From an uncultured Oscillibacter sp. (lineage in GTDB: Bacteria; Bacillota; Clostridia; Oscillospirales; Oscillospiraceae), in assembly GCA_948435975.1 (NCBI GenBank), contig CAOJHG010000039.1:1-10228 (forward strand): 10,228 bases of DNA, in the 5' to 3' direction. This document shows positions 7,869 through 10,228 of the stretch, piece after piece (the stretch's first letter is position 1; every line of letters starts with the position of its first letter). The notes below the pieces were generated by a model that was not told where the DNA came from, ran no database searches, and saw only the letters and a program-made list of their open reading frames with translations. A program made the translations under genes and the position numbers.

Positions 7869-8049
7869 GCACTCAGCTCCCTTCCAAAAAGGGGATACAA
7901 GCAGTATATGCCCGGCGGTGGTCCGCTATGCCTGGCCGCAGGCGTATTAGGGCTTAGCTTAACACAGTGGCGGGGAGAAATCAAGCAAAAGGAATGATGG
8001 TTTTCCCAAAAGGCCGCAACTTTTTTTCCGTGATTCTTCTGGAAGCATC

Positions 8050-8058
8050 TGCTAAGAT
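8050..8058 (+). promoter_or_regulatory. Extended -10 promoter upstream of the structured RNA
   Basis: TGCTAAGAT is an extended -10 element (TGn followed by TAAGAT at 8053-8058); the -35 region (near GTGATT) is poor, as is usual for this promoter type. The predicted start is about 8065. The transcript would run through the structured RNA and, with no terminator seen before 8500, possibly into the slipin gene as a leader of about 435 bases. Bases 7869-8049, between the CDF start and this element, show no gene or strong structure. Confidence 0.45.
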
Positions 8059-8159
8059 AGCCATACAGTCCGACGGGGCAGAGCGGATGACAGCCGCTGC
8101 GGTGCGCGAGGAGGTTCCAAAGCGTATGCCGGTCCGGGATTGTGGATGGCAATCGCGCA

Positions 8160-8302
8160 GGCGATGGGGTTCAACTCCCCTCCAATCGCAGGTTCGAATC
8201 CTGCCGTACGGTGTTCCCGTGCGCCAAGTGGTTTTGGTAACCGCCGGAAACGGCACTCTATTAGGGATAGAGCGATATGATTGGAAAAAGCAATGCCCCG
8301 CC
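8160..8302 (+). ncRNA. Candidate YrlA-like Y RNA with permuted tRNA-mimic module
   Basis: A compact RNA fold. TCCAATC (8181-8187) pairs perfectly with GATTGGA (8279-8285) as a closing stem. Directly inside is a textbook T-arm, GCAGG-TTCGAAT-CCTGC (8188-8204). Immediately next is a 7-bp hairpin, CGTACGG (8205-8211)/CCGTGCG (8217-8223), with one G-U pair and a TGTTC loop; this is an acceptor stem closed by a loop. Then comes a D-arm-like CCAA-GTGGTT-TTGG (8224-8237) with a GG in its loop that could dock with the T-loop. Two small hairpins follow: GCCG-GAAA-CGGC (8243-8254) and CTCTAT/ATAGAG (8256-8272). The stem may continue through GGGG (8166-8169)/CCCC (8296-8299) and GGC (8160-8162)/GCC (8300-8302). 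The order T-arm, acceptor, D-arm is a circularly permuted tRNA, as I recall for the YrlA class of Ro60-binding Y RNAs. The class name is inference; true ends are unknown. Confidence 0.6.
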
Positions 8303-8500
8303 GAAGGAGAACGCGCAGGACCCAGGACGCGCCGCCTCCCCAGGCAATGGGCGGGCGGCCCTGTCCGGCAGGGATTCCGCAGGACGCGCACCCGGGCCAG
8401 AGGTTCCCCCTTCCGTCCGGCAAGCGTCCCGCTTAACGCGCCGGCCGCCGCCCGCTCATGGGCATACGCTGTCATTACAGCCTTAAAGGAGGTTTTCGAT
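8303..8500 (+). other. GC-rich leader between the RNA and the slipin gene
   Basis: No gene is seen. The stretch contains a 10-base direct repeat CAGGACGCGC (8323-8332 and 8380-8389) and a perfect hairpin CCCTG-TCCGG-CAGGG (8359-8373). There is no U-tract terminator, so the upstream RNA may be cotranscribed with the slipin gene and processed. The stretch ends with the slipin ribosome site AAAGGAGG (8485-8492). Confidence 0.4.
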
Positions 8501-9598
8501 ATGAAGCAAGTGGTTATCAACGAGAATCAGCGGGGCTTTCTCTTCCGAAGCGGCAAGTTTTCCGGACTGCTGGAGCCGGGGAAATACCGGTTCTTCCGTT
8601 CCGATGCCGCAGTAGAGTCGGTGCTCCTAGACCAGCCCCTCTGTTCGAACCGCTGCGGCCTGGACACGCTGCTGAGCTGCTCGGAGGTCTCGAAGCAGAC
8701 GGTTGCGGCGGACGTACCGGACCAGCATCTGGCGCTTCACTTTGTTAATGGAAAGTTCTTTCAGGTCCTGCGGCACGGGCGGTACGCCTTTTGGTCCGTG
8801 TACGACAAGCACACGTTTCAGATGGTGGATATTACCAGCCCCACAATTGACGAGAGCATTCCCAAGTACATCTTTTCTTATATTCCGGCCTCGTTTTTTA
8901 CACGGGTGGAGGTAGCCCAGTACCAGCGAGCGCGGCTCTACTTTGATAAAAAGCTCCAAGGCATTTTAGAGCCGGGGACCTACTTTTTCTGGAAGAACGG
9001 CGTAAAGGTAGACGTAAGCTATGTGGATGTCCGGCTGACGCAGATGAACATTACGGGCCAGGAAATCTTGACCCAGGACAAGGTTTCTCTGCGCATCAAC
9101 TACGTATGCAACTACCGGATAACGGACTATGTAAAGGTACTGACGGAGATTGACGACTATGAGGAGCAGATTCACGTAACGGCGCAGTTGGCTCTTCGGG
9201 ACTATGTGGGCAAGCACAAGCTGGATGAAATTCTGGAGGAAAAGGAGCAGATTTCCCAGTATGTGCTTCAACGGCTTCAAGCCCGGGAAAAGGAATTGTA
9301 TGTACAGGTCACAGACGGCGGGGTAAAGGATATGATTCTTCCCGGCGAAATTCGGGACATTATGAATACGGTCCTTGTGGCTGAGAAGCGGGCGCAGGCC
9401 AGTGTGATTACCCGGCGGGAGGAGGTTGCATCCACCCGCTCCCTGCTGAACACCGCCAAGCTGATGGATGAGAACGAGACGCTTTTCCGCCTGAAAGAAC
9501 TGGAGTATATGGAGCGTATCTGCCAGAATGTAGGAAGCATTCAAGTCAACGGCTCCGGCGACCTCCTCGCTCAGCTTGCGGCGCTTTTGAAGGGATAG
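8501..9598 (+). CDS. Slipin family protein (SPFH/band-7 domain)
   Basis: A 365-residue protein of the stomatin/slipin branch of the SPFH superfamily, which forms membrane-associated oligomeric scaffolds. ATG 8501 was chosen because AAAGGAGG lies 8 bases upstream; the frame is open further upstream but crosses the structured RNA. The SPFH core covers about 134-310, with the TYFFWKNGVKVDVSYVDVRL stretch (160-179), TQDKVSLRINYVCNYRITD (191-209) and the helical KHKLDEILEEKEQIS (238-252). A charged helix with coiled-coil character follows (about 290-345), ending in a hydrophobic oligomerisation-like tail (DLLAQLAALL). Unlike many stomatins there is no N-terminal membrane helix. Residues 1-130 instead hold two extra copies of the motif that opens the SPFH core. 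The biochemical role is unknown; slipin genes have, as I recall, been noted near RNA-repair genes. Confidence 0.88.
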   Translation: MKQVVINENQRGFLFRSGKFSGLLEPGKYRFFRSDAAVESVLLDQPLCSNRCGLDTLLSCSEVSKQTVAADVPDQHLALHFVNGKFFQVLRHGRYAFWSVYDKHTFQMVDITSPTIDESIPKYIFSYIPASFFTRVEVAQYQRARLYFDKKLQGILEPGTYFFWKNGVKVDVSYVDVRLTQMNITGQEILTQDKVSLRINYVCNYRITDYVKVLTEIDDYEEQIHVTAQLALRDYVGKHKLDEILEEKEQISQYVLQRLQAREKELYVQVTDGGVKDMILPGEIRDIMNTVLVAEKRAQASVITRREEVASTRSLLNTAKLMDENETLFRLKELEYMERICQNVGSIQVNGSGDLLAQLAALLKG

Positions 9599-9610
9599 GC
9601 GCATCCCTTT
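9589..9610 (+). terminator. Weak terminator-like hairpin over the slipin stop codon
   Basis: AAGGGAT (9590-9596) pairs with ATCCCTT (9603-9609) around a 6-base loop that includes the end of the TAG stop, with one more G-U pair outside. Only a broken T-rich tail follows (TTTCTTT at 9616-9622), so termination would be weak. Confidence 0.4.
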
Positions 9611-9682
9611 GCCGCTTTCTTTGACAGGTCAATTTGGCCCTCACTGCCGTGGGAGGGGTGGATTCTGCCATGATGATGGCTG

Positions 9683-9878
9683 GTCCCATTCCACCCCCAT
9701 TTTCTCTCTTTCAGGCGTGGGAAAGAGAGAAAACGGGCCGTGGACGGTCCAAAAGAGAGAAACCACGACGCGGGCACAGCCTGGAGCAAAATTGGAATCG
9801 CCTCAGTCCCGCGCCGGAACTGCAACGGGGGCGGGCGCTCGAAGAAAGGACTTACTTCCGGCCCCGCTTGCACGCTGC
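9683..9878 (+). repeat. Copy 1 of a ~195-bp inverted repeat
   Basis: Bases 9683 to about 9770 are nearly identical to the reverse complement of the window's last ~90 bases. Both start GTCCCATTCCACCCCC and share ACGGGCCGTGGACGGTCC. The middle has diverged. The inner end is again near-identical, finishing with an 18-base perfect match GCCCCGCTTGCACGCTGC (9861-9878). The copy opens with its own hairpin, TTTTCTCTCTTTC (9700-9712) against GAAAGAGAGAAAA (9721-9733). No transposase is seen. It may be a non-autonomous or extragenic repeat family. Confidence 0.85.
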
Positions 9879-9934
9879 CTGGGTGGTAATTGAGGAACCG
9901 TTCTTCTTTCGAGTGTCTCCTGGAAGTGCATATG

Positions 9935-9982
9935 AAAAGAGAAGATGCCCTAGGACAAACTTCCCAGGGTATCTTCTCTTTT
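9935..9982. terminator. Long central hairpin, possible bidirectional terminator
   Basis: AAAAGAGAAGAT (9935-9946) pairs perfectly with ATCTTCTCTTTT (9971-9982), continuing as GCCCTAGG against CCCAGGGT with one mismatch and one G-U, for about 19 pairs and an 8-base loop. The A-rich 5' side and T-rich 3' side would act as a terminator in both directions. It lies at the exact centre of the flanking inverted repeats. Between it and the arms (9879-9934 and 9983-10033) I see no gene. Confidence 0.6.
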
Positions 9983-10033
9983 GCAATCCCACCATAGGAC
10001 CAAATAAATGAAGCTCTGTCTCTGACCGCCGCA

Positions 10034-10228
10034 GCAGCGTGCAAGCGGGGCTGGAAGCAGAGGCATTTCAATGACCACCCACCCCCGTTGAGCCCGTCGC
10101 GGGGAAGGGCCTGCGATTTTCTGCCCAAACCGGGACCGCGCAGCGTGTTTTTCTCTTTTGGACCGTCCACGGCCCGTTTTCTCTTTTTCCACGCCCTGAA
10201 AAAGAGAAAATGGGGGGTGGAATGGGAC
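10034..10228 (-). repeat. Copy 2 of the ~195-bp inverted repeat, at the contig end
   Basis: Reverse-complement partner of the copy at 9683-9878, almost the same length. It carries the equivalent hairpin, TTTTCTCTTTTTC (10177-10189) against GAAAAAGAGAAAA (10198-10210), and the 18-base inner match (10034-10051). The sequence stops at its outer end, as expected if a short-read assembly broke at a repeat, so the true outer boundary is unknown. Confidence 0.85.

Follow-up and report, generated by a model that had tools for sequence, protein, structure and literature searches.

Which RNA, if any, is encoded upstream of the slipin gene of an uncultured Oscillibacter sp., and which protein could be its partner? 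The window analyzed here, the whole stretch of 10,228 nucleotides of contig CAOJHG010000039.1, had been described in an earlier note as carrying a permuted tRNA mimic that resembles a YrlA-type Y RNA, the RNA partner of the ring protein Ro60. The structure of this region, its conservation, its gene neighborhood and its likeness to YrlA were analyzed.

A permuted tRNA mimic in the window

Direct reading of the sequence located a T-arm, an abutting 7-bp hairpin and a D-like hairpin at the positions claimed for them. The following elements can be drawn in this region:

8152-8165, plus strand: hairpin ATCGC-GCAG-GCGAT, from the sequence and a fold of the window sequence alone
8166-8180, plus strand: second T-arm-like hairpin GGGG-TTCAACT-CCCC (4-bp stem, loop TTCAACT), from the sequence
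8181-8285, plus strand: closing stem TCCAATC/GATTGGA (8181-8187 with 8279-8285), perfect over 7 bp in the window, unconserved in relatives
8188-8204, plus strand: T-arm GCAGG-TTCGAAT-CCTGC; five pairs in a 34-sequence alignment, three of them with changes on both sides
8205-8223, plus strand: acceptor-like hairpin CGTACGG-TGTTC-CCGTGCG in permuted order, with a five-base loop and no gap to the T-arm; a counterpart follows 37 of 44 T-arms (5.2 expected)
8224-8237, plus strand: D-arm-like hairpin CCAA-GTGGTT-TTGG with GG in its loop, also recognized by eye in alignment A1

The second T-arm-like hairpin is located directly upstream of the T-arm region and the 5' strand of the outer stem, and similar hairpins are visible by eye in loci L002, L031-L033, L048, L051, L052, L060 and L132. 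Folding of the single sequence gave structures moderately more stable than those of shuffled sequences (z -2.37 for 8120-8300 and z -2.45 for 8066-8480). The claim that no ordinary tRNA can be drawn here was upheld. ARAGORN detected no tRNA in the window, Rfam gave zero matches in the window at its gathering thresholds, and an upstream partner for the acceptor strand is found at chance level across the loci described below. A conventional tRNA or tmRNA was rejected on these grounds. Matches to mascRNA, tymovirus, PCA3, PhotoRC and fluoride families, obtained in the window with relaxed Rfam limits, were far under the respective thresholds and were also discarded.

The permuted order is conserved at slipin loci

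The search for slipin homologs covered 60 near genomes (51 with a match at 0.001, only five loci being close), a genome contig collection (13 loci) and, at a threshold of 1e-30, 394 genomes of the order (matches in 23) and 391 of the class (matches in 10). Two of 46 oriented slipin loci were dropped, L040 for lack of upstream sequence and L067 as a repeat of L036, which left 44 loci. A perfect 5-bp T-arm is present within 1.1 kb upstream of slipin in 39 of them, the exceptions being L039, L041, L057, L061 and L062. These 39 loci contain 44 T-arms, and 37 T-arms are followed after 0-1 nt by a hairpin of at least 5 bp, compared with 5.2 expected from shuffled sequences. In one of the 37, the upstream T-arm of L051, the pairing extends into the following T-arm; this case is probably spurious. 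Some of the loci are closely related and hence not independent; the 44 loci form 36 clusters at 80% identity, and the T-arm with its abutting hairpin occurs in 29 clusters. The 37 hairpins have 32 distinct 5' strands, and among the cross-combinations of 31 distinct acceptor stems only 57 of 930 would pair over 5 bp.

The acceptor strands were misaligned by RNAalifold on alignment A1 and also in alignment A5, and the hairpin was therefore scored sequence by sequence. As this procedure takes the best hairpin each time, the scores were judged only against equally treated shuffles. Of the 39 loci, 29 have a 6-bp partner of the acceptor strand on the downstream side (5.9 expected). The corresponding figures are 13 loci for the upstream side, as in conventional order (10.5 expected), and 8 loci for a control stretch (9.3 expected). 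Because the partner is enriched downstream and at chance both upstream and in the control, the permuted order is the conserved one, and the succession of T-arm, acceptor and D-arm proposed from one sequence recurs upstream of slipin genes.

Covariation had been suggested as a check for two stems, and they fared differently: the stem 8205-8211/8217-8223 passed with its many distinct strands, whereas the outer stem, taken to bound the module, proved to be a feature of the window that is near chance in the family (10 of 39 loci, 6.7 expected) and has a changed form in L002. It was dropped as a family feature. The D-like hairpin has a short CCR..YGG form in most Clostridia and is a canonical D-arm in L042, L043, L065, L068 and L070-L072 (alignment A1, by eye). 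The conserved and covarying structure across slipin loci bears out the proposal of a real structured RNA.

The module is embedded in a larger RNA

Conserved elements were also found on both sides of the module:

8015-8032, plus strand: conserved operator-like element CGCAACTTTTTTTCCGTG; 30 of 44 slipin loci have a similar element before the RNA
8050-8058, plus strand: extended -10-like sequence TGCTAAGAT, from the sequence
8066-8475, plus strand: predicted whole RNA, ends approximate, from the sum of the element evidence
8101-8130, plus strand: 5' hairpin P1 (8101-8107 with 8122-8130); seven pairs in a 29-sequence alignment, three with changes on both sides
8333-8475, plus strand: 3' arm of five helices, on which covariance model R1 is built; both sides change in 29 of its 31 pairs
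8501-9598, plus strand: slipin (SPFH/Band_7), 365 amino acids, no membrane segment; from Pfam Band_7 (8.8e-30), hydropathy and an AlphaFold model

The element CGCAACTTTTTTTCCGTG occurs once in the window, with 0 mismatches, while 0.01 occurrences are expected even when up to 3 mismatches are allowed. To judge from the -10-like sequence TGCTAAGAT, transcription would start at about 8065; a consensus promoter scan gave no promoter. Conserved structure extends from about 8101 to 8475, and the RNA has a length of approximately 375-410 nt.

In the 3' arm, 86.1% of cells were paired in 22 sequences, compared with 61.9% after shuffling (reached in 0 of 500) and 34-45% with the partner slid, figures that are somewhat favored by the derivation of the structure from the same alignment. 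The model R1 of this arm, built with a short calibration, was scanned over the window and 25 loci. It gave 90.4 bits on the window, whose sequence is part of the training set. Matches in untrained loci had E values of 2e-20 to 1e-12 (L050, L058, L059, L055, L064, L037) and 2e-10 to 7e-7 (L041, L039, L051, L061, L073, L068, L038, L070, L062), followed by the Bacteroidetes-labeled L043 (8e-6), L063 (7e-4) and L042 (2e-3); no convincing match was obtained in L057, L065, L071 and L072. In the loci scanned with Rfam, no family except tRNA reached its threshold on the RNA (in L035, L043 and L136), so that this RNA is either missed by Rfam or misread as a tRNA.

The gene that follows the RNA is slipin, as had been proposed. 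An open frame of 543 amino acids (7967-9598) runs through the RNA in frame with slipin, and the warning that gene finders could misread the RNA as an N-terminal extension is thus justified. The slipin start is placed at the methionine at 8501, because the family alignment, and with it the homology, begins there.

Linkage to slipin and to RNA-repair genes

The order samples used for the R1 and slipin searches have the same size and tallies and were taken as one sample. R1 matched 20 of the 394 order genomes (12 loci of the training set and 8 outside it), in all 20 on the same contig as slipin and at most 0.8 kb from it, and none of the 371 genomes without slipin at 1e-30. Three of the 23 slipin genomes of the order (G074, G333 and G374) were missed. 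Six of 391 genomes matched in the class sample. Five of these matches lie beside slipin and are all training loci or equal to one; the match in G739, which is untrained, is followed 320 bases later by the contig end, inside a slipin-like start with 32% identity to the slipin of L043. The whole-genome search missed five of the ten class slipin genomes (G489, G615, G656, G724 and G758), three of which do match R1 in the locus scans.

Gene neighborhoods were counted in 45 loci, contig ends included and the duplicate L099 dropped. WYL regulators are present within 3 kb upstream in 30 loci, the RNA ligase RtcB within 1 kb downstream in 26 (19 have no RtcB in that range) and RlaP in 3, while 10 loci have none of the three, some for lack of sequence. 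The slipin/WYL/RtcB unit is not contiguous in the genome of the window (61% complete), in which contigs C255 and C313 contain pieces of RtcB, and C47 a WYL pair. The element CGCAACTTTTTTTCCGTG is exact in the window although the WYL pair and RtcB lie on other contigs. Downstream of slipin, the window ends in a repetitive-looking stretch (9609-10228) without RtcB. A phage origin was rejected, as phage records contained zero slipin relatives at 1e-10 and viral contigs, in which close relatives were looked for, contained none.

The distance between RNA and gene is variable. In L033, L055, L058 and L059, RNA and slipin are about 0.9-1 kb apart with an ORF between them, and a separate RNA therefore fits better than a switch of slipin translation. 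An ORF of approximately 200 amino acids is seen between RNA or leader and slipin in L033, L055 and L057-L059, and after slipin in L035; Pfam gave no match for the L033 copy. One apparent example of a locus without the RNA is G374 (L057/L089), which has slipin, WYL and RtcB and no T-arm. L057 is 95.6% identical to L058 over slipin and 450 bases upstream, and the upstream element is separated from slipin by 1035 bases in L058 and by 687 in L057. L057 is thus shorter than L058 by about 350 bases, which corresponds to the size of the RNA, and the RNA seems to be cleanly gone; either it is dispensable there or the assembly is faulty.

Resemblance to YrlA and the rarity of Ro60

YrlA is described in the available excerpt of PMC8394870 as an RNA of 90-150 nt that combines a tRNA-like domain with a basal stem for Rsr and is modified by tRNA enzymes. 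The YrlA model RF02553, searched with relaxed limits, gave 15.8 bits on the window (E 2.4) over the T-arm and the acceptor hairpin, which is insignificant alone. It matched seven of seven relatives that had been selected for their canonical D-arms with 32-43 bits (E 2e-6 to 2e-3, best 42.7 bits in L070), below the gathering cut-off of 69 bits, a score that neither the window nor any of 27 further loci attained; these scans covered about half of the loci. The suggested covariance-model search thus gave sub-threshold matches in selected relatives and an insignificant one in the window itself. In L043 and L065 the match covers model positions 23-85, the tRNA module, and in the alignments of L070 and L072 part of the basal stem is deleted. 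A stem immediately beside the T-arm is again the one near chance, but YrlA itself has a spacer there.

A Ro60 partner, as implied by the YrlA reading of the earlier note, found no support. No TROVE (Ro60, PF05731) gene was detected in the window's own genome, at its 61% completeness, and TROVE was found in 3 of 45 genome entries, namely G070 (17 searched) and G656 and G758 (33 searched), five entries being common to both searches and G065 and G669 probably being one genome. Megabases or hundreds of kilobases separate TROVE from slipin in G656 and G758; in G070 the TROVE gene is on another contig than L042. R1 had no convincing match in three stretches around TROVE genes. Membership in the YrlA family was rejected on account of the sub-threshold scores, the lack of Ro60 in most carriers and the length of the RNA. 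What stands of the proposed unannotated Y RNA is a structured RNA with a permuted, Y-RNA-like module, found in a slipin/WYL/RtcB setting and too long for a YrlA RNA.

Related leaders beyond Clostridia

Matches in a plasmid collection led to slipin genes of E. coli and Citrobacter that stand beside an annotated nucleotidyltransferase, with rtcR adjoining in Citrobacter. The E. coli leader (L133, 4680-5000) contains a T-arm with 4 of 5 pairs followed by ATTCATT-CCTGA-AATGAAT, and the Citrobacter leader (L134) a T-arm with 4 of 5 pairs followed by TTTCAT-CCCCGA-ATGAAA. Both leaders have a TGGCACG site, which we take to be sigma54-like. Neither Rfam nor R1 matched the E. coli leader, and its 3' arm is therefore different or too diverged. 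The E. coli leader sequence is present in 1624 of 5426 complete genomes, always on the chromosome, with no RNA annotated in the two regions examined, and its function is thus testable in an ordinary laboratory organism. A plasmid-labeled Subdoligranulum record has the clostridial form (R1, 88.5 bits). In Burkholderia (L135, 4666-4738) and Photobacterium (L136, 4665-4806), tRNA-like sequences of apparently conventional order lie upstream of slipin; they are labeled tRNA-??? and tRNA-Met by ARAGORN and are a source of false tRNA annotation. According to the available excerpt of a study on Anabaena (PMC10272220), a trcR mutant shows strongly increased expression of a slipin gene and of rtcB.

A proposed role in RNA repair and its alternatives

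The reading that we favor, with about as much confidence as doubt, is that a Y-RNA-like RNA at the head of the slipin operon acts in RNA repair, with slipin in the place of Ro60. An RNA of about 400 nt would be transcribed at the operon head, its core being the permuted tRNA mimic (T-arm, short-loop acceptor hairpin and D-arm) held between the 5' hairpin and the long 3' arm. Slipin, a soluble and probably ring- or cage-forming SPFH protein, would bind this RNA, and the mimic may recruit a tRNA-handling partner or compete with broken tRNAs. The system would function in repair together with RtcB and RlaP under the control of WYL regulators. This mechanism is supported by the covarying permuted module, the occurrence of R1 beside slipin, the frequent WYL and RtcB neighbors together with RlaP, and the similar leaders of the slipin and nucleotidyltransferase pairs in E. 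coli and Citrobacter. It is weakened by G374, which keeps slipin and RtcB yet has no T-arm, by the three order and five class slipin genomes that R1 misses, by the location of RtcB and WYL on other contigs here and the 10 of 45 loci without WYL, RtcB or RlaP, and by the apparently conventional order of the Photobacterium and Burkholderia tRNA-likes.

The main rival to such a scaffold is a cis-acting leader: as part of the 5' untranslated region of the slipin mRNA, the RNA would regulate this message and use the mimic to sense either damaged tRNA or the enzymes that cleave tRNA. We regard this as rather unlikely, though it deserves to be taken seriously. In most R1 loci the RNA is on the same strand as slipin and only a short way ahead of its ribosome-binding site, the genes around it suggest RNA damage, and a simple scan gave no terminator-like site between RNA and slipin (its single match, at 8210-8225, is inside the RNA and at chance level). 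However, the ribosome-binding site is free here, as it lies beyond the end of the 3' arm model at 8475, the RNA can stand about 1 kb upstream with an ORF between, and the alternative upstream pairing of the acceptor strand is at chance.

It is improbable that the RNA is instead a decoy or substrate, its permuted region being cut and sealed, possibly circularized, by RtcB, or soaking up tRNA nucleases or modification enzymes. Permuted tRNA genes elsewhere are circularized in splicing, and RtcB is a neighbor in more than half of the loci (26 of 45). The modification of YrlA by tRNA enzymes (PMC8394870) and the decoy role proposed for it (PMC7790460), each as given in an excerpt, point in the same direction. 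Against this stand the acceptor strands, which are connected through a loop of few bases and have no CCA end, and the 19 loci without RtcB within 1 kb. That the RNA is a true YrlA, with Ro60 and PNPase as its binding partners, is mostly refuted and very improbable: RF02553 does match over the tRNA module below threshold, but TROVE is confined to three of 45 carrier entries and lies there on another contig or hundreds of kilobases from slipin, and no conserved stem lies beside the T-arm. That the stretch merely encodes an N-terminal extension of slipin, or folds by chance, can be dismissed despite the open frame, since the slipin alignment starts at the 8501 methionine and the base pairs covary.

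Comparison with known systems

In two-piece, permuted tmRNA, the T-arm and acceptor precede the D-arm in the gene, and this order is shared by the slipin-linked RNA. The latter differs in its closed short loop and the lack of a CCA end, and no tmRNA match reached threshold.

The eukaryotic vault consists of major vault protein and vault RNA, and major vault protein has tandem beta repeats, an SPFH-like shoulder and a long cap helix. Slipin (8501-9598) contains three tandem N-terminal units, and its predicted overall arrangement is like that of major vault protein. It differs in having three repeats only and in the lack of a Pfam vault family (none in a scan up to E 10); when the N-terminal part alone was used for a fold search, no match was strong. 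Slipin, as a soluble SPFH protein whose repeats, shoulder and cap helix would be vault-like (with three such repeats), could assemble with the permuted tRNA-mimic RNA into a ribonucleoprotein cage of bacteria, related to the vault but smaller and active in the repair of cleaved tRNAs, but as a joint reading this has a small chance of being correct.

The excerpts of the literature matches listed contain no description of a slipin-leader RNA. Burroughs and Aravind reportedly described, in NAR in 2016, SPFH/Band-7 modules of RtcB systems whose cognate RNA is a new kind of tRNA-like molecule. The RNA described here shares the location of a tRNA-like RNA beside a Band-7 gene (R1 beside slipin in 20 of 20 order genomes, a T-arm in 39 of 44 loci) and the RtcB repair setting (RtcB in 26 and WYL in 30 of 45 loci). 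It is very probably a permuted, YrlA-like form of that RNA.

With YrlA (RF02553) the slipin-linked RNA shares the permuted T-arm, acceptor hairpin and D-arm as well as the location in RNA-repair operons. It differs in that most carriers have no Ro60, in its linkage to slipin, and in that the module is part of a longer RNA (about 400 nt) that adds a 5' hairpin and a 3' arm. A conserved Ro-binding stem was not recognized beside the T-arm, where YrlA has a spacer. According to the excerpt of PMC7790460, Hughes et al. suggested a decoy role for YrlA and a possible inhibition of an anticodon nuclease by its domain; by analogy, the slipin-linked RNA could inhibit such a nuclease too. One permuted tRNA module thus appears with two protein partners. 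Both of them, Ro60 and slipin, occur in settings of RNA repair, and this suggests a shared logic of a scaffold protein combined with a tRNA mimic.
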